A program made the position numbers and the translations under genes. 64,000 nt of DNA from Branchiostoma floridae (lineage: Eukaryota; Chordata; Leptocardii; Amphioxiformes; Branchiostomatidae), in NCBI RefSeq assembly GCF_000003815.2, contig NC_049993.1, positions 11,618,851 to 11,682,850 on the forward strand, given 5' to 3'. The notes beneath the pieces are model-generated. The model saw only the letters and a list, made by a program, of their open reading frames with translations, made no database searches and was not told the DNA's origin. Below, in pieces: positions 1,975 through 63,020 of the stretch. How positions within the stretch are numbered: position 1 is the first letter of the stretch; every line of letters begins with the position of its first letter.

Positions 1975-4900
1975 TTAGATCTTACTGCCTGCAGACAACA
2001 AGAGAGTTTCAAACTTTGACAGTTGTAACCTTACCCTGTTCTCCTCCAGCACAGCTGACCAGTCCCGCTGGGCAATCTTGGGAATGGCAGACTTAAAGAT
2101 GCGGACTCCCTTCTCAGCATTGCCCTTAAACACCTTCAGCACAGCCTCAACACTCACCTAGAACAGAGCAAACACATGTCACTCAAGCTTTCTGGATATT
2201 GAATACCAGGGCTCGAAATTCATTTGGGGAATAGGTGCACCCAACCTAGAAAATTGGGTGCACCAAAATATTTTTGGGTGCACGGTGCACCATATCAGAT
2301 AAAGTAGAATATCAGAATAACCTAATTCCAAACCTACTAAATTAGTACTAGTAATTTGAACGGAGCTCTTCAGAAATCGGAAGTACTATGACAGTCATTT
2401 TATTGTCTTTCTAACACATAGACGTCAAGAATATGGTGTTTACTTAGTATACTGACATCTTAACATACATAAGCCTATAAAAATATTTGGGTGCACCCTG
2501 TGCGCCCACAGAAAAAAATTGGGTGCACAGCCCCAATTTTGGGTGCACCTGGGTGCACAAAACCCCAGTATTTCGAGCCCTGAATACGAACAAGGCCATA
2601 AGCCTTTTCATGAATACATCCACACAGGCACGCATACCACATCCACACACACACACACACACACACAGACACACACACCAAACAAAGACATGACAAAGAC
2701 ATTGCTAAAATACACATACATGGTGTCCTGGATCATCCCTCCAACAATCATAATCTGTTGCCATGGCAACTGCAGCGTAGCACAGTCCCGCCTCCTTGGC
2801 CAGGGCGACCTCCGGCACCGTGGTCATGTTGATGACATCACCGCCCCACATGCGGAACATCTTGCTCTCCGCACGCGATGAAAAGCGAGGCCCCTCGATG
2901 GTGACCATGGTGCCGCTTTCATGGTGCCTGATTTCCAACTCCTTGCAAACATCAATCAGTATCTGGATGGAGAAAAACAACATGGATAATAAAACATACC
3001 AAAAATCCCCGTGGAATATTGTGTGCATTTGGTTGGTCATGAGTTCAATCCTGGCTGAGTCATACCCAAGACATTAAAAATGGTTCGTACTGTTTTCTCT
3101 GCTTAGTACTCAGCATTCAGAAGAGAGTATGGAAGTTGAACACACACCACTACCAGTGGACTAGTCCCCTGCTGTAGTGATTAAACAAAGTTGTGTGGCC
3201 CAGGAATACTGAAACAGAGAAGGGCGTTGCCCTATGCACCATCTGGTGCGGGAAGGACTTTAACTAACTAACTTAGTTCAAGTTTACAGAGGACCTACTT
3301 TTCTGGTGTGAGGACAGAAAGGTGTGTCCATCGGAAGGTGACACACACCCAGAGGACTGCCAGGGTTGCCGTCGTAAAATGTTGTGGCACGTTTCGTTGT
3401 CCGATCAATGAACTGGTCCAGGATGACCATGTCTCCTGGATGGATGTCTTCTCTGGGGTAAGATAAAGGGATAAATAAATAAATAAAAACAAAGGGAGTA
3501 GATAAATCTGCAATGTAGCTCCACACAACACCTAAGTTTGCATGTGAGGAATAACACAATAAACTTCCAAAAAAACAATTCCTGAAACTGATAAAGTGAG
3601 AGACAAGTACAACATTAAATTAGATTAGACATCTAAGTGTACAATAAATTATACAAATCATTCATATAGTCAGATGTTTTCTGAAGCGTCTGATTCTGTT
3701 AGAGACCTTATTTGGTTGTTTGATTTAATTTGCATAATGCAGCTACTAAGATGTCTAACCTTTATCAAACTTTACCCTGGAAACCAGCCTTTTAGCCAGG
3801 GCTGGCACAGAATCTGTTTGGCAGCTAAGGCAGGTTTTTTCGAGGACCTTAGATAAGCACACCAGGGATTTGTCATGCAGGGAGTGTTTGCTGGCCTAAC
3901 TAGTAGTATTAGCTGCCGAACAGATTCTCTGCCAGCCCTGGGTAAGTCTGGTTTCCAAGGTACATATAGTTCAGCTCAAATGAAAAAGTCCTCTCCTCAA
4001 CTGTGAAACACATCACTGAACACAAAGCACGTACCTGAGCGACCCGCAGGCTGTAGAGACGATCAGGTGAGTACAGCCCTCAGCCTTCAGGGCGTGGACA
4101 TTGGCTCGGAAGTTTATGTTGGTAGGCATGACAGTGTGGCCTCGCCCATGCCTGAAATCATGTTCAAAAACACGCTTCACAATGTATATACTATGGATGA
4201 CAACTTTTAAGAGATTATAAGAATGGAATACTATCAATGCTGTAGACTAGGAGACTGCTGCCTACTCCTGTGTCAGGGACCCCAGCAGCAGTATAATCAA
4301 ATACTAATACTGGATACTACTACTACTGTACTGCTCTTTACGAATTTTTTCCCCCTGTCAACAAAAAGTCACATAATATATCCATAGCTTTTTAAATTAC
4401 ATGTATCCTGTTATCTATAGTGTTAACCAACCTACCAACAATGCACAGCAACAAATGCTGATATAAACATTACCTCCTTGGAGATATTCTTCAATTTCAG
4501 CAATTACAGCATTTCCCAAAGAGTTTATCTCACCTGGCCAGAAGGACACATTCCACACCTCCGACATCACCCAGGATCAGGGCATCAGACGGCTGTTACA
4601 AATATCAATGGTTTATTTCATTTGTGTGAAAAGCTATTCTGTTGCTACTGTATATCTGCTGTTTGCATACTTTGGCACATTGATTTGCCAGAATTACAGC
4701 TTTTTTTAGGCTTATAGCAGTCAGTGGTAATAAAACATTTCATATACATTGTAATATGATTTAACCAAGGACGTTACATAACATCCTTGATTAACAACTA
4801 TAGGTGTAGATTTATGGTAGATTCATGAACCATTTTCCATTCATTTAAGTTTGTCCTAGGCTTTTACATCTACACTACCAGGTATATACAACACTACACT

Positions 4901-7467: not shown

Positions 7468-13630
<6,163 letters not shown>

Positions 13631-15227: not shown

Positions 15228-18702
<3,475 letters not shown>

Positions 18703-21324: not shown

Positions 21325-23668
<2,344 letters not shown>

Positions 23669-39722: not shown

Positions 39723-40832
39723 AAATTTTGGTCCCGTGCGCAGGCGCATGATTTGTGATCTGCTGATTGGTCAACAGTTACTTTCCCTTTCCCAGGGTTC
39801 TCTTTGGCAGGTGCTTCGAGAAAATATTATGAACCACCTGCTACTTAAAGTATTACAAGAAAAACAAACAAAAGGGGACAAACCTTGGTCCGATAAAAAG
39901 CTTCTGAAAATGTGTACTAAGAACTCGTCCGATAGGCTTAACTATGTCTTTGAAGACGGTGCAGACACCAGATACACCGTGTAAAGAGAAAGTAAAGTTT
40001 AACCCTAATCATATTCATTGTCATAGATTAATATCAATAAAAAAGTTTGGACCAGTCTAAGTAGAAAAAAATGATTAGTACAGGCGTGTCTGAACGTTCA
40101 CGATATCGGAGCATCACTTAGGCGACGTATCTTCGTTATTGATAAATTATTCATAAAGATTATGTTGCCAAAAGCGTCCACATGTTATCATCTTTTTGCA
40201 TATCAATAATTCATAGCTACGATTGCACCCTAACCGATTGAAATGTTCATATTAGGAATAGCGCACCTCTCTGTAATATAATACTGCTTCCTGTTGCATT
40301 GAATGGCACCCTTGAAATTTTTCATGTTGAAATGACGTCAGGTTGATTTTTGCAAAGCAGTTAAATATTGTCCTATCATGATTGAATTCTCCATTAGCGA
40401 TGGTAAGTTGATCTACGGTGAACATTAGGGTGTTTCCCTAATCATAGAGGGTGTGGATGGTAAACGCCCATACCCAGGAATAGTAAACACTTCACCATAA
40501 AGAAGGTCAAGCCATTGCTACAACAGCAACAGCAACTTCTTTTAAATTGTGTTGGAAAAGTAGTTTGAACTCACGAAATACCACAAGGTAAGGATTAATA
40601 GGTGTTTTGTACCTATTTGCTACCTGCATCTTTGATCGTAGAGGTCTATGATAAGACGTACATTTATAAAATAGAGTGCAATATTAGCCCGGTTGGTTTA
40701 AGCATGTATGTTCAATGGGAAGCAAGGAACAAGCCTACAGACTTTGCCTGTAGTCCAATTTTTCCAGTTACTGTTTGTTATACATGTGTATCTATTATCA
40801 TGATTTTTATATTTTTACAGAGAACAATTGCA
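39723..40832. other. divergent promoter region between PRKCSH and the IFI44-like gene
   Basis: The region contains a likely noncoding first exon of the IFI44-like gene, ending at about 40587 (CCACAAG|GTAAGG) and joining the acceptor TTTTTACAG at 40812-40820. An open frame at 39622-39984 has no recognised family and overlaps PRKCSH exon 1 in antisense, so it was not called. No convincing interferon-response element was found. Confidence 0.45.
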
Positions 40833-43800
40833 ATGGCTTCCTACTTGCCTCGCGTAAACAAAAACAACACCAGTGTTCTTTTGTCAGGGGAACATGAGCA
40901 GAAGCTGAGGCAGTGGCTGAAGAAGCCTACGTCCGATTTTAAACTGCTTTTCAAAGCGACCGCGAACACCTACAACGCCCAGGAATTCCACCGTCTGTGT
41001 GACAACCAGGGGCCAACCATCATTGTCGCCTACAGCAACAGCGGCGACGTTTTTGGGGGGTTCGCCAGCGTGTCGTGGAGAAGCGCGGGAAGGCACGTCA
41101 CCGCACCTGGGTCCTTCCTCTTCAACCTGAACAGTAAAGTGCGCTTCCCGCTTAAACAGCAAGGTGACGCTTCTGCTTTGTATGACGACGGGGCTTACGG
41201 ACCGACGTTTGGAGGCTACGACTGGGTTTCCTTCACCGGGTCCGGGATGAAATCCTCCTTGTTGGGCCCACCTCACTCCCGAGTTGAAGCCCAGGGGGCC
41301 AGGGGTAATATCGGGAACTCTTATTCCCCCCACGGGACCGACAGAGCGGTGTCGTATGAGGAGTTTGGGGGGCTAGAGGCGTACGGATATCTGACTGGCA
41401 CCTTCTGCGCCGACCTGGACTACAAGGACATCGAAGTCTACACCATCAGAGGTGCGTTGTTGACGTTATCAGATGGGCTGATGTAAGGTAAAATCTTTCA
41501 CTGAGAACAGCGATCCGGCTACACGACGAGAAAGGTAGTAGAAAAATCTTACAACTAGTCTTATACGTTTCACTATATTTTTATTGCCGTTTTGACAGAC
41601 AAGCCAGTCGTTATCAGTGGAAAGAGAGCGGATGCTAGTCCAAATGTGCCGAGGCTTAAAGAGACAGCCTGGAGGACCATGGAGTGGACTGTTAGGTACT
41701 TCTTTCTACAACGTCATCATTCGTATCTTACAGTTGTCATTGTTAAAAGTTCTGCCCTTTGAGTTAACATGTGCTGCACATGTTCATGTTTTAACCGGCA
41801 ATAGACACATGTATAGCCATACAGCGGAAACATATTAAGTTCATCTAATAAGTCTAAAAGGTAGTATTTAAAGGAACTAAAAAATTGGCCATATCGTTAC
41901 ATACCAGTACACCATGAGCGGTCACTTTCGGTACAAAATATGTTGATGCAGGTTAGACGTTAAGTACAGAATGTTTTTGGTTATCTTCTCATACGTGCAG
42001 TACAAGAGATGACCTGGTGCGAGAAGTGAGTGAGTACCGTCCCCTGGACAGCACTAAGGTTCCACAAGCACAGATCCTGCTGTTGGGCCCGGCAGGGGCA
42101 GGGAAGTCCAGCTACTTCAATACCATCAACTCCATCTTCAGGGGCCACGTGACGTCACAAGCTGTCACTGGGATAGCGCCGCACAGCCTGACTAACAAGG
42201 TACACTTCGCACATGCGCAGTAAGCACTGCCAAATACGGGGTTGCGAAAATTGATTTCTATTGAACGATTGCAGTATCACTGGCAATAACTTACTCACAA
42301 TAAGGGAATAGGCTATTCCAAATAAGCCATGGTTTATATGCTCAGAAAAGGTGTCTTTTAAAACAGTAAAAACGTCATAAGAGATTTGACACTAAGACGT
42401 GTTCAGAATTTCTAACCAGAAGCTCTCCCCAAGTTATCGAACCTGATTGATGAATGCAGTAGGTAGTGACAGTTCGTTGTTTAAAAAGGAAACTACTGAT
42501 ATTGTTTATGTAATAGTGGGGTTCAAGCGCCGCCACTGAAACTGACCATGCCAAAGGCTCTGAGCTTTTGGCGTAGTGGTTTCCGGCGCTGGGTTTGTGG
42601 TCTGGTGGCTGGGTTTGGCGCGGGTTTGAATCCTGAGAGCCAGGAGACTGTTTCTACTCCTTTCTTACATTTATGTATTGGATGATCTCTCTACAGTTCC
42701 GGCGGTACGAGGTCCGGTCCGGCAGGGACGGCGGTGCGCTGGGGTTCCGCCTGTGCGACACGATGGGTCTGGAGGACGGGCAGGGTCTGGGCGTGGCAGA
42801 CATACCCTACCTGCTGGGCGGGAACGTACCTGACAGGTACCAGGTGAGAACGATCCCAGCTAGTGTAGAAAGGTGCTAACGATTCGCCTTTGAGATTGTC
42901 TTGAGACTGGAAGAACACGGTTGTTACAATGCAGTAGATCTGTGCACTCTAAGTTCTATGAATCAATGAATGGATCCGGAGAACTTTTTTTTGCATATTT
43001 TTGCCCCACTGGGATAAGCACAGGTCACATAGTAACAATCATATAACGTTACATGTGATAATGTGCATAAATACGTCTATTACACTACTGTAGTACATTC
43101 GACTTCTTGTCGCTATATTATAAGCTTTATGATTGGTTGGAGTTGGTTTATCGAAGGCTGTAAGGAATAGAAATTTCTCTTTACTATTCAAGTTTAAGTA
43201 GTTTAACACAACTTTAAGTCGAATAGAATTTTTCTATCGCTATCATTCAAAGGACAATGTAAGTAAGATATGAGATATGGACATCAGCCATTAAAGATAC
43301 ACCAACAAATCTTTTTTTTAAATCTTTTCCCCTAAAAGTTCAACCCAGCCGTGTCCATCGATCCCAGCATCCCCGAGTTCAAGGTCAAACCTCCCCTGGC
43401 TGAGACCATCCATTGCGTCACGTTCGTCATCGACGCATGCGTGATGAGCGTTTTGTCGCAAGGCATTGTGGATAAAATTAAAGGCTTGCGGACAAAAATC
43501 AACGAGCGAGGTTTGTACTTCTGAAATGTTCTTTGAGTTTCACATGCAGAATATTATATACACCAATAGGAACAATTTCAATACACAAATAGAAACAATT
43601 CTCTGGTGGGCCGTTAACAACCCGCTTTTGCGTGGTAACTGTTGCTAGGCAGTTTTTCATGCTTGGCAACGAGTAACTTACAGGACTGGTGTCTTTTTTT
43701 TTACCCGAAGACGTCTTAATTTCTGAGCCGTATGAAACAAACTTTTGTAGCCAAGATCGAATCTATTACATGTTTTGTTTCCTATAAATCTTCTCAAATC

Positions 43801-48108: not shown

Positions 48109-51100
48109 ATGTCTACGCAAACGGCCTATAGGCAGCTACATACACACCAGTGTTTCACGTTTCTCCTGGGAGTGGCCACAGCGAGCTGTCTGGCCTACAT
48201 GGTCCTATTCCACAGCGAACACAACTATACTGCGTGCCTGGCGGGACCAGTCCAATGCGTTAACGCCCAGGCTAGGGCAAGACGGTAGGTTTTTGCCGTT
48301 GTTGCTTTCGCAATGAGGATTGAATCCCTGTAGTGAGAGAACTACAACTGAACTTTAACCAAACCTGATATATTCTTAAAATGTTCATCATATGTTGAAA
48401 ACATATCATGCTGATTGAAGATTTGAATATAACCTGATTACCAAGACGTCCATGAATGTGGTGAATTTCAATAAGAGAAAAAAAATTCTACATTCACAAT
48501 GCCTAGTTTCTTTTATTTTTGCAACTAGAGTTCCACGACCCCATAACTTCGCCTTTGTTACCTTTTAGAGTGATGTATTATACATATTTCTCAGTGATTA
48601 TGCAGTGATCAGCATAAAGTATTAGTTGATCATAATGTGATCATCTGCTCTATCTAAATAACACAATGTGATATTCATGTCTGGCAATGTTGACCTTTAC
48701 CTTGCTTCCAAATGACGCAAAGATGACGCTACTTCAGGAGCACATCCCCCCAACCCCACCCCCCACCCTCACCCGTACAGACGTCCCCTTTTCGTATCTA
48801 ATAAGCCAAGATCAGATGAAGAATGAATGAACTTTATTGCATGACATTTGTACATTGTATAATTGTAAGGCAACAGTAATAAGTCAATTAATACAATGAT
48901 ACTCGTCTAAGGTCTATAACTACATACATGTATAGTACAGGAATGTGAACATAAATGGCGTGTTGACATAGTGTAACATGCAAGTTAAACAAGTCGGTCT
49001 GTTACTGCACAATAGATTTTCTCTTTTTTAGAGCATTACATATGTATTGGCCTAATCACGAAGATGATAAGTCAAGTTCAGAGGAGCCTGTGCCGAGAAA
49101 GCCGAGAAAGATCCTGCTTGACTGCGGTGCTAACGTGGCGTCCTCAGTCCAGTTGTTTCGGGAGACGTACCCAGACGGTCAGGACTTCATCATACACTCC
49201 TTCGAGATAGACGAGAGGCTGGCGCCGTTCTTCGCACCGTACCCGAATCACGTGCTACACTGTCCCACTGGGGTGTCCAACAAGGACGGTGGGTAGGGCC
49301 ATGATGATTCGTTTATATGGATGACATCACATGGGAATCCAAAAACTGATGTGAGCGTGCGAATAAAAAAACTGCATTATGAAATCTAAGTGGAAGGTTG
49401 AACAGATGACTGAACACACAGAAAATAGTACAAACATATACATGTTATTGTAAACCAAACATCAGATTCTTCATTTTTGTTATTTCACCTTTTCTTTGAC
49501 CTTGTAATGTTCTATGAAATTTCTTCTTTTGAAGCTGCATTGTGCGATTTAGAGTATGGTTGAAAACCGTTTATATTTCAGTCCATACATGAATTGAAAT
49601 GTATTGTCTTTTGTCATGTTTATTATTCTTTTCCTTATATTTTCTATTAATTGTTTTTGGACCAAATTAGCTGAAATTTGGCATGGTGGTGGAGATAGTA
49701 AAGTCCCTAGGCGCCTTTCTTCACTTTTTGTTCACAAAGGCCTTAGAATTACTTAATTAGTTTTTTGGGGTCATTCTTAGACCAAAAATATATATTTTGG
49801 GCCCCTGTGCCGTGGTATTACATCCTAATGACCTGCAATTTGGTACAGATGTTCATTGGACATATGCCCATGGGATCCCATCAACACTTTTTGCATGCAG
49901 GACTTAAAAAATTAGCTATTTGTTGATATTTTGCGAATTTTGACTACAAATATAAAAATTNNNNNNNNNNNNNNNNNNNNNNNNNNNNNNNNNNNNNNNN
50001 NNNNNNNNNNNNNNNNNNNNNNNNNNNNNNNNNNNNNNNNNNNNNNNNNNNNNNNNNNNNTGAATCCAGCTGCAGTACTGGCCGAAGAACTTAGGGCGGG
50101 CATATACCAATGCAGAACCTGCAACACAAAGATAGGGCGGGTATGACCACGGCTTCAATGGAGGAGAGACAATCACAATTGTCCTGCACGTAAGTTGGTC
50201 CAATTTTATATTGTCTCTCTCCATTTCCGCCGTGGTCATACCTAGCATGACTTCATAGCAGAGGCCAGTACTGATTAACCAGAGAGACAAAAAGAAATTG
50301 TTGCAGAACATTCCAAATGTCAAAACAAAGGCCCAGTTAGCTGCCTTCATCATTACTTTAGACAGAACCCTGGCTGTGTAGGCAGTAGAGGTCGGAGCCC
50401 TCCTAAAAAAGTGTCCTGTGAAAAGAAACATTGGATCCAAATCTGCTAGATGCAGATAGAAAACTGCACAGCATTCCAGAGCTGAGAAGCTCGCAGAACA
50501 AGCCATGTCTGAAAAGAACGGAATATTCATATTCTATGAAAAAGAGCTTGCAAACACAAGGCATAACACCTTTAATTAATAGCCCAAAACAAGTACAGGG
50601 AATGCTGATTGGCGAAGACCTTGTTGGTCATTTACTTGTATATGGAAAAACCATAACCCAAGTGTGAAAAAGAGGTCGTTCGATCCATTTTGGTGAAGAC
50701 GAAGACGTTCTATTCGCATCTGAAAATGCCAAATGTTGGACTCTTCCTACCGAGTCTCAGCATGGAGTCTCAGCATGGGATCTGGAAGAGAACTATTTCA
50801 GGCGAGCACCTGTGGAGCAAATTCAACGCCACAGGAAAGCACCAGCCTGACACGCTTGGTCAGAGGAGAATTCAAATGAATATAAAATGTGTACTCTCGT
50901 GCTGGGTACCACCTGATTCATTCAAAAAGAAAAAAGATGAAAAGGAGGAATAAATCGACTCAATTTTACTCAAATCTTCATAACAGAGACAGAAGTCCTA
51001 TAAAACTTTCTCTGGCAAGAAAGTAAATAACGTTATGACACATAAACCGCCTTGACCTGTGGGCAAGGAACTGGGCAAACCGTCAAAGGTTGCTATGGGA

Positions 51101-54100
51101 ACGTGCTGTAGAAACGATCCGGGAAGATCGAAGCACACGCCTGTAAGAAAAACACCGGAATCCTTGTGAAGTAACGCGTGAATACGGAACGACCCGAAAC
51201 TCTGTGAAGCCGCCTACCGTTTCCAGCAAGAGCAGTAAGTATAACTGGCCGGCTGAGTACCTGAAATGAACGCACCAATCATTAACGGTTAATGCCGTAA
51301 CAAAAAGTACTCGTCCCACTGTGTGGGTGAACAAGAAAGCCCATGGCTAAGAGTGCAAAATCGAAACACGTTCGAATGCTGTAAAAGTCGTCGGAGATGA
51401 CCGGTACCGTACAAGGTAACGAACACGCTAACTCGAAAGCCGAGTATGGATGCGCTACTACGGAAGCGCTAAAATCCCGTCTGCACAGACGAAAACCGAA
51501 ACTGACGGCTGGCGTAGCCCACATCAGAAAAACTACAACGGTATACAAAAAACCATGGAAGTAACCCGGGTAAAAAAGACAAAGGCTCGATGAAACAACG
51601 CGGCAAAGACAATGTGTTGCACGTCAGAAGACGAGTCACTCAAGTGCGAGAGACGCCATATTAAAAATACACGCAAAGTCTGACCTAAAAACAGCGCCAT
51701 GTAGCGATTGTCGCATGAACTACAATGGACATGTAACATACGCGTTGACGGCAGACGAATGTGATGTGGTCAGGATGAGCTAAGCTTGAACTTGGAACCC
51801 GACGGACGAACAAGAGATGCTTGAACAAGGCCTATTTGAAAGGCAGCCTATCTAGTCCGTCGAGAAAAGAATGTACCACAAAGGTCTGTCATTCATACAC
51901 TCAAAAGGCACACGGCTTGTGATGACAATGGTAAAAGATTAACACGTAAACAGCTGAAGGCGAAGTCCGACCTAACACCACGTTCCAAAGCGGCCACCGC
52001 CGTAGCGGTAAAATATTCAAAGGGTAAAATATTCAAAAGAAGCGTGAGACTTCCTAACACCCGAGGTCAACGCCTGGCTAGCCTACAAAAAAACGGCGAA
52101 AATGCGCGTCTAAAAGACCCGAAAACAAATCGAAAACTGGTACGCGAGAGCGAAAACAATCGAAAACATACATCAGCGAAAAGAAACTCAAGTAACATAC
52201 CAAGTAACGAAAACCGCGAAGACCTAAAATGGTCAGACAACTCTGAAACAGCGGAAGCTGCTTGATCAGCTTGAAACAGAATAACCAAGGAGCTTTTAAG
52301 AAAAGTCGAACACGATGGCGATCAACGCTAACGTAGCCACGAAAATTTTACATGACAGTGACGACGAGTGACCCGAACGAGAAATATTACGGAAAGTGCG
52401 CTCAACGATCCATTCCAATACATTTGCATAAAAATGCTAAGCAACCTGGCGATCTAAGCCAAGTAGTAACAGCAAATTTTGCATAACAGTCAACAATAAA
52501 CAGCGGAGCGAAAACAATGGGTTTAACAAACCCTCATTTACCTCTAAAGAGGCGTAGCATGGCTCCATACTGGAAGTACTGGCAGTAAAACAATGAAAAC
52601 CACATAACTTTACTGCATAAACTCTCCCCATGGAGAACATTTTTCCAACCCTACCTGGCACAATCATGAACGTACTATAACGTTCTCAGTAAACAAAGAA
52701 TCAACAACTCAAGAATTTGAGAAAATTCATGAACGGTATGAAACGGATTACTTTAAAAACTTGGCAGAGACGTCGCTACGAGACTGCCAGCGTGAGAAAA
52801 ATCCTCGCCAAAAGGCACTGGGTGCCTCCTACGGTCATTTTGACCCTGTTAGACGGGATTGAAGTATTAAAAAACACCGCAAAAAGTCATTTGGGCGAGT
52901 ATAACACGCACCACGAAAGTGAACAAAAACATACATGTACCTCAGCTTGACGCCTATGGTTAGGCACGTTGCTATAGTCCTGAATTGGACTTTCCACTCA
53001 CCTGCAGCATGGCTTGGAATACACTTACCTACCATCGCTGCATTCGGTGCTTGTGTCCGCTCAGCGGAAGGCGCCCTGGAACCGTAGACGATTGCGGCGC
53101 CAGTCAGGATGATTCTATGTGGCCTAGGCCTGCAGTCTCCAGCAGCATGGCTCATAAACGGCCCTGCGTACGTCTTGATGGCGGTCTGCCAGCAGAGCAA
53201 GAAACGACGGCTGATACTAGTCACACTCCCGGTCTGCATGCCGGCTGTGTGAGAATCGTCGGGCTCCGAAAAGGCCGCACTACATCTCAGATACATTCTC
53301 GTGTCCGCTGACACCTGATACATGCTGCTGTGACCCATGACCAAATTCCGAGGAAGACTGGTTGGAATGGGTTCTCTGCTGTTGTGTCCCAAAGGTGTCA
53401 CATGGTGCACCATTATTGTGTTGGCAGCACATCCGCGCTACCCTGCCGAAGTGGGCTCGGTGGAACTGCAAACGTCTCCGCCCAGGCAGGAATGTGGTGC
53501 GAGCGTAGCTCACCTGAAACACTTTCATAGCAATGTATGCACGTGGATTGGACATACTAAATTTCGCGTGCNNNNNNNNNNNNNNNNNNNNNNNNNNNNN
53601 NNNNNNNNNNNNNNNNNNNNNNNNNNNNNNNNNNNNNNNNNNNNNNNNNNNNNNNNNNNNNNNNNNNNNNNACTTATGGCGAGATTAAGGAAGGACGTAA
53701 TCAATGTCGAAAGATCATAACATCTACCAAAACGACACCAGAGGACATTGGCGCTACAAGACGTAAGCAGGAATCTTGGCCACACTTCATTGTCGGCGAG
53801 TTGAGTTAGCTGTAAGGCATAATCAATATTAACATAATCAATATTACTATTCTCGATTACATCCAAGGCATCCGAGAGTTTTGTAGGCTCTCCGGGCACG
53901 GTCTACTCCAGCTGCTCGGCTCCCCCCTCGGGTGCCCCCCGCCTGGCGCTGGCTGTTCTAGTCGGTATGAACGTCAAGGCCGCGCACAAGTTGGTACAGA
54001 CAATAGCAGCTCATTCGAGCAGGATGCCGGTCACACTCTTCCTCTATGGTGACTTCGTGGAAACGTTTCCGGAACTGGTGACGGAATGGGCCAAAACGTT

Positions 54101-56003
54101 CACAATAGGCATGCGCGAGGTGAGGCTTGTTTCTACTATGAAAAATCGAGGTGTTGCTTGTGGTATATGTGTGTGTGTATTTGTGCGTGTTTGCGTGTGT
54201 GTGTGTATGTGCCTGTGCGTGTTTAATTGTGTGTGCGCTTGTGTTTTCGAACATTTTTTTTTCTATTTTGCTATTGGACAGACGAGGACAATGTGGCACT
54301 GGACTCAAGTTTTGTAACTTATATTAACAGCGCCACATACACGGTACAGACAGAAGGTATATATAGTCTTTTACCTCCCCGACCGAAGTCAGGTACCCAT
54401 TTTTACACCTGGGTGAAGTGAGGAAGGTCGTGTAAAGTGCCTTTCCCAAGGGCACAACGTCGGGGGGCACGGCGGGGATCGAACTCAGAACCTCTAGATT
54501 CCGAGCCGAACGCTCTACCAGTTACGCCACGCCCGACGCCACTTTGCCGAACATTTGTGGTCTAGCATAACTTTTAAAAACATAGATGGATTGGTATGAT
54601 GCTTCACAAGTGAATAGGGGGTTTTGAAGACCAAAGTCAAGGTCGATTTGGAGGTTTGGGCCCCCGTTTGTGTGACCTGTTACGATCCCCCACCATTGTA
54701 CAGTGTACACGTGTGTAAGGGGCTCCTAATGGCACCTAGTTACTAGTGGTATGGAGTGAATGACTGAATTGAATACACTTTGTGCAGTGGTATGTGCCGT
54801 GTCGACCCGTTCTGTGACTCTCTGGTTTAGAACGATAGGTCTTAACATGACCTTGGTACTGATCTTCCGGTTTTTGTTTCTTTTGTTATCACATGCTATG
54901 GTCTGAGCCCTCTATCAGCATACCCGGGAACTGCAGGGGCGTTTGCTTAACATACAATTAGGAAAAGTGAAAAAGGAACGACAGATTTCCATGATACTAC
55001 AACATACACTACAGCAGTATTTTTAAGAATCCGTGACACACTCCATGATTTTGTTGCCTGCAGAGCCAACCATTTCCGCTAGGACAATTTTCGATGCAGG
55101 CATCGCCCTGGATCCGGACGGGGCTAGTCAGTGCCATACAGCGTCTGAGCGAAGTGGACATACAAACAGCTTACTACTTACCCGAGAAAGTGACAGACAC
55201 CGTCATAAACGAAGCCAAGTCTCTGGGCTTGAGGATCATCCAGCCGACAGCTCGCTTCCCTCCAACCGATGGTATTTTTCTTTACTTTTCAGACCTGTTA
55301 GTGTGTGCCTGTTCGAAAATAGTAAAGATGATTTTCTTGTCGTTTCTGGACGCGATGTTAGATCCGACAATAATTCCACCAGGTTGATAGAATATAGGAT
55401 ATAGGAGATTTGTTTTGCACAACCAGTTGGTACTCAATTTGCTTACGTTTCGATGTCTCTCAGACACCTTCATCAGAGCTTATGACTCAAGTTCTGCTGC
55501 TCACCGCTATATGTAGCCGATGTAAGGTCACCGTAGAGTACTGACTTCCTCACTCAGTCCTTCCAGTACTCAAATGTCTGAGAGACACCGAAATGTAAGC
55601 AAAATGAGTGCTAACTGGTTGTGAAAAAGAATAATCCTATATTCCGTAATGTTGACGTTCTAACAAAACATAGTGATTCCAAAGCCTTCTACAGCTAAAA
55701 AAGGATCTGCTTGTCCATTGCAGGAAAAATATCGCCCATGTGGCATGATGTATACATATTTTCCTTTCATTTTGTGACACAGAAAAATGGCTCCTGACAG
55801 TTGCGAACTACTTCAAGAACAGAGATGTAGAGAGGGTTCCCAAAGCTCTCCGCGTCATCGCCAACCAACTGGACAACAATGGAGGCATCGTCAGTCTGGA
55901 CTCGGACCACCCGGACAGTTACATGAGTTCAGTCTTCCTCATGGACTATTTGGTGGAGAAGTCCGGTTATAATCTAGTCAGCATTGTGGGGTGTTTGGAG
56001 TAG
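48109..56003 (+). CDS. FkbM methyltransferase-type membrane protein, copy 1 (incomplete)
   Basis: Exons recognised are 48109-48284, 49032-49288, 53868-54119, 55064-55271 and 55783-56003. The N-terminus (MSTQTAYRQLHTHQC) leads into a hydrophobic anchor (FTFLLGVATASCLAYMVLF). Exon 2 carries the SAM-binding start LLDCGANVA and FEIDERLAPFF. The last three exons match the C-terminal region of copy 2 almost base for base. The two exons that in copy 2 encode KLDVEGAEYD and YYGEFHRW are missing. Joining exon 2 directly to 53868 would break the frame (433 nt upstream against a phase-0 exon). Gaps at 49961 and 53572 fall in exactly this interval. It is either a pseudogene or an assembly casualty. An in-frame non-ATG extension upstream was ignored. 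Confidence 0.7.
49961..50060. other. assembly gap (100 N)
   Basis: A round-number run of N, so the true size is probably unknown. It lies in the interval where exons 3 and 4 of FkbM copy 1 are expected. Confidence 0.95.
50140..50246. repeat. inverted repeat duplicating part of the DHHC-like exon
   Basis: GGTATGACCACGGC at 50142 is repeated inverted as GCCGTGGTCATACC ending near 50242, with adjoining AATGGAGGAGAGACAAT / ATTGTCTCTCTCCATTT. The plus-strand arm reads MTTASMEER and the minus-strand arm reads MTTAEMERD. An exon fragment was therefore copied in reverse beside itself. Confidence 0.7.
50165..50530 (-). pseudogene. possible DHHC palmitoyltransferase fragment
   Basis: The minus-strand frame contains VMMKAANWAFVLTFGMFCNN, a hydrophobic stretch FFLSLWLISTGLCYEVML, then GMTTAEMERDN. 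A transmembrane segment followed by TTxE is typical of the region after the fourth membrane helix of DHHC palmitoyltransferases. A likely acceptor (TTTTCACAG) precedes GACACTTTTTTAGG. No DHHC zinc finger is present, because the fragment runs into the assembly gap. It lies antisense inside FkbM copy 1. Other membrane-protein families are possible. Confidence 0.35.
50640..53571. other. gap-bounded interval of unassigned, decayed sequence
   Basis: The sequence is purine-rich on the plus strand, rich in CGAAAAC-like words, and unlike its flanks in composition. Several frames of 60-190 codons overlap on both strands (for example 52835-53413 minus), but none matches a family I recognise. The segment 52990-53190 repeats CAGCAGCATGGCT-like words. 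It may be a decayed transposon or misplaced contig. It contains none of the missing FkbM exons. Confidence 0.4.
53572..53671. other. assembly gap (100 N)
   Basis: A second round-number N run, about 200 bases upstream of exon 5 of FkbM copy 1. Confidence 0.95.
54165..54240. repeat. (TG)n-rich microsatellite
   Basis: An interrupted GTGTGTGCG-type run in an intron of FkbM copy 1. Copy 2 lacks it at the matching intron. Confidence 0.85.
54362..54540 (-). repeat. tRNA-derived SINE (family 1, nearly complete)
   Basis: On the minus strand it reads TCGGGCGTGGCGTAACTGGT, with AGAGC completing the A box. It then reads GGTTCTGAGTTCGATCCC (B box) and the body TTGTGCCCTTGGGAAAGGCA, GTGTAAAAATGGGTACCTGA. 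An RNA polymerase III promoter with a unique tail identifies a SINE rather than a functional tRNA gene. It sits in an intron of FkbM copy 1; the matching intron of copy 2 is short and lacks it. Confidence 0.85.
55363..55656. mobile_element. hairpin MITE with an empty site in copy 2
   Basis: Arms AATATAGGATATAGGAGATT...CAACCAGTTGGTACTCA...GTCTCTCAGACA and TGTCTGAGAGACACCG...TGCTAACTGGTTGTG...AATCCTATATTCC are inverted. The flanking intron sequence resumes as GTTCTAACAAAACATAGTGA, which in copy 2 follows ATGTTAGA directly (near 62654). The element therefore inserted after the duplication. Confidence 0.8.
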
Positions 56004-58992: not shown

Positions 58993-61900
58993 ATGGAGAA
59001 AGTCGTCCGTCGCGTGTGTGAAAGCCGATGGGGAGCGTTGCTTATCGGCGCCGTCATCGGGAGCTGTGTGACTCAGCTCTTTACCGCCGCGCCGAGAGTT
59101 CCTCACACCACAGAACTCCGTACATCTTCCTCCAGAAGCCCCGCATGGCTGTTACGAACCCAAGAAAGTCAGAGTAAGTCAGTGTGGTCTGAATACATCA
59201 AAGATCCCCAATCGAAGGAAGAAAAGTGAGTTTCTCCACTTTGTCATGGATTTTTCTCGATGAACTTGGCGTTTAAAGCTGTTCACCTTTTCTCTCCGAT
59301 TGTTCAAGAGAGTTTTTTTGCGTAATTAATGTAAAGTGCTATAATTCTTCTAAATGGTAAATAATTGCACAATCAACATTGTGACCAGTGTAAGTTATCT
59401 AAATGTGTACATAACCAAGCATAGATTATGTAAATGTAGAAATCATTTACATATCATGGAGATATAAGGTCTCCGAACTCTTGTTATTTCATGTAGCAAG
59501 TGGCAGGACAGAGATGTAGAGACTGGTCACCACATGATCCCACATGTGTAAGAATACGTAGAGCAGTAGTTTGTTAGGCTACTTCCTGGTCATTCAAAGG
59601 AAAACATTATTTTCTTGTACATTTTACCTTTCAAATTTATCATGAACTTCATACAGATTGCCGAGAAAGATCCTGCTGGACTGCGGTGCTAACGTGGCGT
59701 CCACAGTCCAGTTGTTTCGGGAGACCTACCCAGACGGTCAGGACTTCATCATACACTCCTTCGAGATAGACGAGAGGCTGGCGCCGTTCTTCGCGCCGTA
59801 CCCGAACCACGTGCTACACTGTCCCACTGGGGTGTCCATCAAGGACGGTGTGTAGGGAGAGGGTGGGAGGGGGTTGTTTGTATCTATGGTCAGGGGACAC
59901 AGTATTTATTCGCAAGCCGAACCCGTCCATGACACAGTTACATAAATGAAGTAGTACGGATAAAATTGCTCAATAACGGCTAGATCTAGAAAGTCTTATT
60001 TGAGAGGCAGCCAGATATAACCTGTGCTGCGTAGTCAAGGAATATGTCGACTTTTAGACTGTAGGATTAATCGGTTTGAATTGAGAAGGTTCTCCATTTT
60101 GCTGCACCATGAAAATGCGCCTCATGATCACCAAGCAACTGTTTTTCTATGGAGAGCCGGCTGAAGTTATTTGACCTTCACGTAGTGGCGTTTCTGCGTG
60201 GGCGTAAGAGGGCGATGCGCGGACAGATTTGTTTAAAAAAAAAAAATTTTAGATGGAACCCTAACTCAAATATACTCATTTTGGATATTCCTCCTAGTGC
60301 ACCCTTGCATGTCGCGTGGAAGCAAAAATATCCCCCATGAAGAAATGTTTCCGTACACACCCAGAAAAAATCAACAAACTAATTTGGTACTCGGAAAACA
60401 TAGCTTAGAAGGCAGGAAAAGATTCAACAAGGGGAACTATGCGTATGTTAGCGATAAATAGATTCATGACTAATACTTGTGATGATCATTTTATGTTGCC
60501 GAAGGCATCATAATAAGTTTATTGTGCTTGTGTTAAAATTTTCTTGATGTGACGTGTATTGTTTTCTCCCTGAGTTGAGATCCTGGAAACATGTTTTTCA
60601 TGTGAATCGTGGACCTTGTTCGAGCCAGGAAACATGACGGCGTACTCGGAGTCAGCCTGGTCCCCGGATAAAGGAAAGAACAACCGCAGAGACATGCAGT
60701 GGGGAGGGGGGTCACTCTTTGCTTTTGATGATGAGAAAGCAGACACCGAGACGGGAGGCAGACGGAAGTTGTCTCATCACCGGACGGTGCCGACAGTCGA
60801 CCTGTCCCGCTGGATTCAGGAAAACACGGCGGTGGAAGACTACGTCATCTTCAAGCTTGACGTGGAGGGTGCCGAGTACGACATCTTAAAGAAGATGCTG
60901 GAGGACGGGACCTTCAAGTGGGTGGACAAGTAAGTCTCGTGCTTCTCTCAAGTTAAGTATTCATTCTCTTGCTTTTACCCACTTGCAGAAGTCAGAAAGT
61001 GTAACATTTTGACAACATCTGGATAATCAAAGCATGATAATGTTGCTTTCGGTCGAGCGAGCAATGAGAGATGATGTCGTTTGTACTTATGCTACAACTT
61101 GCTACATTTATAAAGACATGATTACATTTATGTTTAAAGGGAGGATTATTTGCTATCTTTTTGCTAGGTCTCTGATCATTTGTTTTGATTGAAAGCAGCT
61201 TACATTTTCTATAAAGTAGATGAATGTGTTTCTGAATTGTTATTAACCATTATTAGTTAAGTCTGTAGGGTTTCCGAACTACGATGTGTCTTTGTGCCAC
61301 ATATAGCTGGCCCAAAACCAGCACACCTTTGTCCATGAAGAATGTACTTAACTTTCAGCTTTTGTTTTACGTCAGATATTACGGCGAGTTTCACCGCTGG
61401 CAACCGGTAACAGGCTGGGATAAGGAAGAGAAGGCAAACCTCGTGTCAGACGTAAAGACGAAAGGCAAACCTATGATAAGTTGGGCGGCTGAAGTCAGGA
61501 ACTACGGAGACTTTAACACCATGCACCCTCCATTGGTGAGTAGTGACTGAGTGCCAAAGGATTATTCCAAGAAATACATCTTAAAGCAGTTTGAAATTCA
61601 AGCTTCATCCTACACATAGTTAATTTTTGCCACAGAAAGCTGTCTCATGATTTTATAATAAAGGAGCAAGCGTTAACGTTAGGTCCGTTGTTGTTTAAGT
61701 TGAGATGATCAGGCCGAAACGGTTAACCATAGATTGGCCGGCAGAGCTCAAGGTTACGAAAAAGTAAGTAGTAAGGGGCTGTAACCGGCTGTTACTAGTA
61801 TATGCTTAATGCCATTTCAAAGTCACGCCATGTTGTTTTATCCAAGGCATCCGAGAGTTTTGTAGGCTCTCCGGGCACGGTCTACTCCAGCTGCTCGGCG

Positions 61901-63020
61901 CCCCCCTCGGGTACCCCCCGCCTGGCGCTGGCTGTTCTAGTCGGTATGAACGTCAAGGCCGCGCACAAGTTGGTACAGACAATAGCAGCTCATTCCAGCA
62001 GGATGCCGGTCACACTCTTCCTCTATGGAGACTTCGTGGAAACGTTTCCGGAACTGGTGACGGAATGGGCCAAAACTTTCACAATAGGCATGCGCGAGGT
62101 GAGGCTTGTCTGTGTCAAATATGCCATTATGCTGCATGTGAATAGTGCTGTTCAAGGGAATGTTGTTGAATTTGGAAAAAGGTCTTGATACTAGTATAGA
62201 ACAAAAAAAAAATAGTTTTTATGATTGAAATCTATCAATCTTTCCAACTATCTATCTAAATGTCTGTACTTATGTCTAAGTAAATCGAGATACAAAATTA
62301 TAGATGCACAAGTACGTCTGGTTCACAACGATTCTCCTAACATGAAGATTTTTCCCTGCAGAACCAACCATTTCCGCTAGGGCACTTTACGATGCAGGCA
62401 TCGCCCTGGATCCGGACGGGGCTAGTCAGTGCCATACAGCGTCTGAGCGAAGTGGACATACAGACAGCTTACTACTTACCCGAGAACGTGACAGACACCG
62501 TAATAAACGAAGCCAAGTCTCGGGGTTTGAGGATCATCCAGCCGACAGCTCGCTTCCCTCCAACCGATGGTATTTTTCTTCAATTTTTAAACTTGTTTTG
62601 TGCGCATGTTCGAAAATAGTAAAGATGATTTTCATGTAGTTTCTTGACGCAATGTTAGAGTTCTAACAAAACATAGTGATTCCGAATCCTTGTAGAAGCT
62701 TCATACAGCTAAAGAAGGATCTAATATGTATATCCTAGCACAAACATCGTCCCATATGGCATATGTTGAAACGTTTTTCCCTTTCATTTTGTAAAACAGA
62801 TAAATGGCTTCTTTCTGTTGAAAACTACTACAAGTACAGAGATGTGGAGAGGACTCCCAAAGCTCTCCGCGTCATCACACAACAACTGGACAACAAGGGA
62901 GGCATCGTCAGTCTGGACTCGGACCACCCGGACAGTTACATGAGTTCAGTCTTCCTCATGGACTATTTGGTGGAGAAGTCCGGTTATAATCTAGTCAGCA
63001 TTGTGGGGTGTTTGGAGTAG
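58993..63020 (+). CDS. FkbM methyltransferase fused to a NodB-like C-terminal region, copy 2 (complete)
   Basis: Exons are 58993-59225, 59657-59847, 60575-60929, 61376-61535, 61847-62098, 62362-62569 and 62800-63020: 1620 nt, 539 aa, every junction in phase. A short basic N-terminus and one hydrophobic segment (WGALLIGAVIGSCVTQLF, about residues 13-30) suggest a type II secretory-pathway membrane protein. Residues about 80-313 carry FkbM-family features: ILLDCGANVAS, FEIDERLAPFF, VPTVDLSRWI and FKLDVEGAEYDILKKML. The C-terminal 210 residues read RLALAVLVGMNVKAAHKLVQ, MPVTLFLYGDFVETFPELV and IVSLDSDHPDSYMSSVFLMD. They resemble the strand-helix pattern of polysaccharide deacetylases but lack TFDDGP and the HxxxH metal ligands. 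Substrate unknown. The start of exon 3 (60575) is the least certain border. An in-frame upstream ATG at 58951 would add 14 residues. Confidence 0.82.

Follow-up and report, generated by a model that had tools for sequence, protein, structure and literature searches.

Proteins of the FkbM type transfer methyl groups to hydroxyls on sugars and other compounds. In Drosophila, Star is a type II membrane protein which helps growth-factor precursors to leave the ER; it is a trafficking factor, not known to be an enzyme or to have a NodB-like tail. Methylated sugars occur on glycoproteins of invertebrates, where they have been called conserved targets of innate defence, and the same review states that methylated monosaccharides are found in invertebrates and were never detected in vertebrates (PMC6272458). 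A 2019 paper called the enzymes that methylate the N-glycans of C. elegans unknown (PMC6422873), and they were still described so in 2023 (PMC7614267). A clam FkbM transcript is on record (PMC9125321), and FkbM and nodB occur as separate genes (PMC3684757).

The motifs that define NodB domains, MT1 to MT5, are used here as given in PMC10967932. Several members of the family depart from the deacetylase scheme. According to that source, EcCDA (2VYO) is a NodB protein which is probably inactive, and the PuuE allantoinase is a metal-free enzyme in which the two MT1 aspartates and one of the MT2 histidines are missing, with its MT4 aspartate and MT5 histidine kept (PMC10967932). BA0330 and BA0331 are NodB proteins described as devoid of deacetylase activity, and the pair is reported to interact with peptidoglycan (PMC4505593).

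The window considered here is a stretch of 64,000 nucleotides of the Branchiostoma floridae genome. It contains, on its plus strand at 58993-63020, a gene of seven exons that splice reconstruction joins into a single frame of 521 residues. This gene, the downstream one of a tandem pair, is real; its six introns are all of the GT-AG type and the stop codon lies at 63020. The first-pass annotation had described one continuous seven-exon frame with an anchor, FkbM motifs and a tail, and the exons do join in frame, with LLDCGAN, KLDVEGAEYD, RLALAVLVGMN (residues 320-330) and PVTLFLYGDFVETFPELV all present in the 521-residue protein. Its numbering implied 539 residues, which would fit an alternative exon 2/3 junction adding 17-18 residues. 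The 521-residue form is preferred because a donor of identical place and phase is present in the tandem copy, and because its alignment to TIGR01444 is unbroken (49.0 bits over model 2-143); the longer form gives 47.2 bits, a small gap, with a best stretch covering model 72-143 only. Elsewhere in the window, EF-hand frames are seen on the plus strand (9731-10198, 17437-18299 and 23192-23506), a long open frame (40602-41483) carries a TLDc domain (Pfam, 1.5e-18), and a nucleoside phosphorylase frame (PNP_UDP_1), which we take to be MTAP-like, lies on the minus strand at 2708-3073.

Exon 1 (58993-59225) encodes a short basic N-terminus, a hydrophobic, signal-anchor-like segment and then a stem. 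The segment, residues 15-33, has a mean Kyte-Doolittle value of 1.83, and no 19-residue window starting past residue 40 reaches 1.3. By hydropathy, the protein would thus have a single hydrophobic segment at its N-terminus, as type II Golgi enzymes do. The FkbM domain starts in exon 2 (59657-59847; LLDCGAN, EIDERL), continues through exon 3 (60629-60929; KLDVEGAEYD, with an NMT sequon at residue 143) and ends in exon 4 (61376-61535; YGEFHRW...PMISWAAEV). Residues 84-248 match TIGR01444 over model 2-143 of 143 (E 1e-11, 45.5 bits, cut-off 37.7), and residues 86-230 match Methyltransf_21 (PF05050) over model 1-131 of 173 (E 3e-8, 34.4 bits, cut-off 22.7). Both matches lie above the curated cut-offs, which places the predicted domain in the FkbM family beyond chance, and the SAM motif LLDCGAN is retained together with DVEGAEY. 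The FkbM part also drew a beta-lactamase model in NCBIfam at E 0.12. A scan of genome contigs with the FkbM part gave 10 pattern matches and no relative, a result that says little for a scan requiring short exact peptides.

When the full-length protein was compared with a plasmid collection, five records were matched, each covering 10-50% of it and none more than 80%. Two of these five, both from Sinorhizobium (L022 and L023), were examined, and neither FkbM frame has the tail: the stop of one aligns in exon 4, and the other ends nearby. Some 230 residues of the amphioxus protein are therefore an addition relative to these two relatives. In L022 the tblastn match continues beyond the stop in the next reading frame, which looks like another gene, and this continuation is read as chance.

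The reading favoured here, with a rough probability of 0.5, is that of a secretory-pathway protein with a single membrane pass, in which a lumenal FkbM methyltransferase is combined with a NodB-fold module lacking a metal site. The short cytosolic N-terminus and the signal anchor would hold the SAM-dependent methyltransferase in the lumen, with the putative NodB-fold domain after it. Given the signal anchor, the protein would most probably work in the lumen of the Golgi, with a glycan as acceptor. O-methylation of a sugar hydroxyl on such a lumenal glycan would then be the most likely reaction of the methyltransferase, and the pseudo-deacetylase would most likely position or bind this glycan. 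In a first alternative there is no glycan binding, and the tail stabilises or dimerises an ordinary FkbM methyltransferase. Such a role may be supposed, but NodB domains act by ancestry on polysaccharides, and the reported interaction of a deacetylase-inactive NodB pair with peptidoglycan (PMC4505593) also argues against it; this alternative is rather unlikely.

The favoured reading depends on what the tail is. After the FkbM domain, the tail comprises about 203 residues (319-521), split over three exons. A linker and then the beginning of the NodB-like domain, from residue 319, are encoded by exon 5 (61847-62098), with RLALAVLVGMN at the MT1 position, a helix, VTLFLYG and PELV. Exon 6 (62362-62569) provides the middle of the domain, without the MT2 His-His and with an NVT sequon at residue 421, and exon 7 (62800-63020) its end, with GGIVSLDSDHPD at the MT5 position (GSIILLHD), then SGYNLVSI and the stop. 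Searched with either tail, Pfam returned no family up to an E of 10, and PHROGs had no match for the tail of copy A, the downstream gene. In NCBIfam each tail drew a single match, to the polysaccharide deacetylase PdaB. Its E is 0.069-0.083 with copy A (12.7-12.9 bits, cut-off 237.4) and at best 0.083 with copy B, the upstream one; taken alone, this match is at chance level, as the beta-lactamase model at 0.12 for the FkbM part illustrates. Neither Pfam nor NCBIfam thus gives a deacetylase model above its cut-off for either copy. A phmmer search of the PDB with the copy A tail found no match, and a two-copy profile gave a single chance-level one, to a beta-N-acetylhexosaminidase (E 1.1). Viral contigs scanned with the two-copy alignment yielded 119 pattern matches and no relative, and tblastn against plasmids found nothing up to E 10.

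The tail was next compared at the profile level with hhalign, the query being effectively one row. A scan of viral contigs with a NodB consensus seed had found no relatives among 39 pattern matches, and NodB rows were therefore taken from the plasmid collection: 15 proteins were hand-picked among 60 listed of 626 plasmid records matching the seed. One plasmid, from Roseomonas (L014), carries a polysaccharide deacetylase gene flanked by two annotated SAM-dependent methyltransferase genes. Against the 15-row profile, the copy A tail scores 29.7 in global and 36.2 in local mode, the global alignment being collinear from end to end, and the copy B tail scores 35.1 and 41.6. The null set consisted of 816 segments, no longer than the tail, from E. 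coli K-12 open frames of at least 150 residues. In each mode only eight of them outscore copy A, every one from YadE and PgaB, both annotated as deacetylases, or from ArnD, which has a NodB1-like domain (PMC10967932); other PgaB segments score below the copy A tail. The best segment from outside these three proteins reaches 22.4 globally (TatD) and 28.1 locally (TatD, PanB). None of 200 shuffles attains the copy A score in either mode, the reversed tail scores 3.1 and 13.6 (global and local), and the protein's own FkbM domain 3.9 and 18.7. With a seven-row TatD profile, the sole alternative profile compared, the values fall to 3.0 and 11.9 for copy A and 2.8 and 14.0 for copy B. Enlarging the NodB profile with YadE, PgaB and ArnD left copy A at 29.3 (38.5 in local mode under other settings).

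The 816 segments, the shuffles and the TatD profile all point to whole-domain NodB homology at the profile level. The relationship appears specific but very remote, since each of the 15 NodB rows, compared with the others, scores 124.8-321.3, far above the tail. The NodB interpretation of the first-pass annotation is thus upheld in part: remote homology, the NodB1 order of elements and best-supported relatives that are NodB proteins speak for it, but no family model matches the tail above its cut-off.

The same comparisons bear on a second alternative, in which the tail, an alpha/beta domain, has another origin and its NodB likeness is convergent or due to chance. Neither Pfam nor PDB sequence searches gave an above-chance match, which suits this view. 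With the 15-row profile, HMMER reached only 4.8 bits for copy A, spread over three short pieces. Taken singly, exons 5 and 7 align at the expected place (1 of 200 shuffles as good for each), and exon 6, with 4 of 200 shuffles as good, is misplaced on the profile, again in line with another origin. The failure of single-sequence comparison, a test without power, suits it too: the 15 NodB rows were not separated from the 816 segments (P 0.30). Exon 5 folded alone gave strand, strand, helix, strand, helices and strand at pLDDT 67.5, which for this single-exon fragment is the expected strand/helix order with one additional strand in front; exon 7 alone (pLDDT 47.4) was unusable. Fold searches with the exon 5 fragment, uninformative in themselves, returned weak matches to other, mixed folds and no NodB row among the rows shown. 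Against another origin, the tail outranks, in both modes, every segment of the 816 outside YadE, PgaB and ArnD, it scores about 3 with the TatD profile, and the second copy scores higher still with NodB. An unrelated domain seems doubtful on this balance.

The methyltransferase part could itself be misjudged, if the protein were a non-enzymatic, Star-like animal member of the FkbM group, such as a factor for cargo or trafficking, with a tail that binds protein. Star, as described above, is of type II topology and aids ER exit, and an annelid genome paper lists PANTHER family PTHR34009 (PROTEIN STAR) together with Pfam Methyltransf_21 (PMC12403961). The retention of LLDCGAN and DVEGAEY, with a family model above its cut-off, speaks against such a role, which is a serious rival though a less likely one.

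If the favoured reading holds, the NodB-like module would have no metal site, and the alignment is consistent with this. The first-pass annotation had placed RLALAVLVGMN where the TFDDGP strand is expected, and it indeed falls at the MT1 position, the tandem aspartates being aligned to Leu-Val of VLVGMN; neither TFDDGP nor HxxxH is present in the tail. It had also matched PVTLFLYGDFVETFPELV to the second NodB segment, which agrees with VTLFLYG standing where strand 2 has ATFFVLG, followed by PELV. Its claim that the metal-binding Asp and HxxxH are missing is borne out at MT1 and MT2, and MT5 can be added. The MT2 His-His has no counterpart, the nearest histidine (LGH) being a glutamine in the second copy. 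At MT5, GGIVSLD lies opposite GSIILLH, which turns the histidine into an aspartate (GIVSLDSD). The place of the MT3 arginine is occupied by YYLPE, without Arg, in a weak local alignment, and for the MT4 aspartate PTDDKW is nearby, in an unsure register.

Loss of these residues might also mean a changed, metal-free chemistry, the tail being a NodB-fold enzyme like PuuE, which works with neither MT1 aspartate and with one of its MT2 histidines missing (PMC10967932). The acidic LDSDHPD at the MT5 position is identical in both copies, but it falls within the 123-base stretch at the end of exon 7 that does not differ between them, so that its conservation is uninformative. PuuE moreover keeps the MT4 aspartate and the MT5 histidine, the latter being Asp in the tail, and a metal-free enzyme is considered very unlikely.

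The tandem paralogue lies upstream on the plus strand (48109-56003), with exons 2, 5, 6 and 7 matching the downstream gene. Its probable exon 1 (48109-48284) is dissimilar in sequence, with a hydrophobic segment of mean 1.99 and the same exon phase. Exon 2 (49032-49288) holds the FkbM start, in the same phase as downstream. Exon 5 (53868-54119) shows 98.8% protein identity to its counterpart, and exons 6 and 7 are at 55064-55271 and 55783-56003. Exons 3 and 4 were not found at their expected place, around 49961-53671; since two 100-base N runs of the assembly (49961-50060 and 53572-53671) lie there, no inference is drawn on their loss. The stretch between these runs (50061-53571) has no match to the downstream gene and may be intron or a misplaced contig.

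Between the two copies, exons 5-7 show 14 silent changes (160.8 sites) and 17 replacement changes (517.2 sites). For this one pair of copies, pS is 0.087 and pN 0.033, hence a pN/pS of 0.38 (Fisher P 0.008). The 123-base identity at the end of exon 7 suggests gene conversion. The tail is likely under constraint, which is only roughly measured because it comes from one copy pair with this identical end. Gene decay or an assembly artefact in one or both copies, as the N runs in place of upstream exons 3-4 and the apparently recent conversion might suggest, is highly improbable in view of the open downstream frame, its GT-AG introns throughout and tail changes that lean silent.

A wider scenario can be proposed, speculative and on present evidence unlikely, in which a chordate lineage fused FkbM to a NodB deacetylase whose catalysis was then lost, the domain becoming the glycan-reading module of a Golgi glycan O-methyltransferase, which would be one of the missing animal glycan methyltransferases. 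In that case, a pseudo-deacetylase would have gained a new use; more generally, if the tail binds glycan, the NodB fold would serve as a non-catalytic reader within another enzyme. In any event, a duplicated FkbM gene whose product has an anchor and what looks like a carbohydrate-related module is a concrete candidate for an animal glycan methyltransferase. The first-pass annotation knew of no described protein with this order of domains. Literature searches, whose coverage leaves out most subscription journals, gave no paper on an FkbM-NodB fusion among the matches listed, none pairing FkbM with amphioxus or with a deuterostome, and none pairing amphioxus with methylated glycans.

Compared with known systems, the N-terminal half resembles the Sinorhizobium FkbM proteins L022 and L023 (181 and 199 residues), which share the catalytic domain with its GAN and DVEGAEY-type motifs at 27% identity but stop at the end of that domain, without the 230-residue extension. 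The PROTEIN STAR family (PTHR34009) groups animal proteins that also carry Methyltransf_21, likened here by description only (PMC12403961). For the tail, the NodB domain (CE4, PF01522) offers a collinear whole-domain profile match, with VTLFLYG at the place of ATFFVLG and PELV; it differs in that the MT1, MT2 and MT5 residues are replaced in the tail, which has no Pfam match and scores far below all 15 members. EcCDA (2VYO), probably inactive, and BA0330 and BA0331, devoid of deacetylase activity, are members of the NodB family, as the tail would be, and the accessible text on them mentions no methyltransferase part (PMC10967932, PMC4505593). PuuE has the NodB fold and, like the tail, has lost both MT1 aspartates; it remains an enzyme and retains the MT4 aspartate and the MT5 histidine, whereas in the tail the MT5 histidine has become an aspartate.
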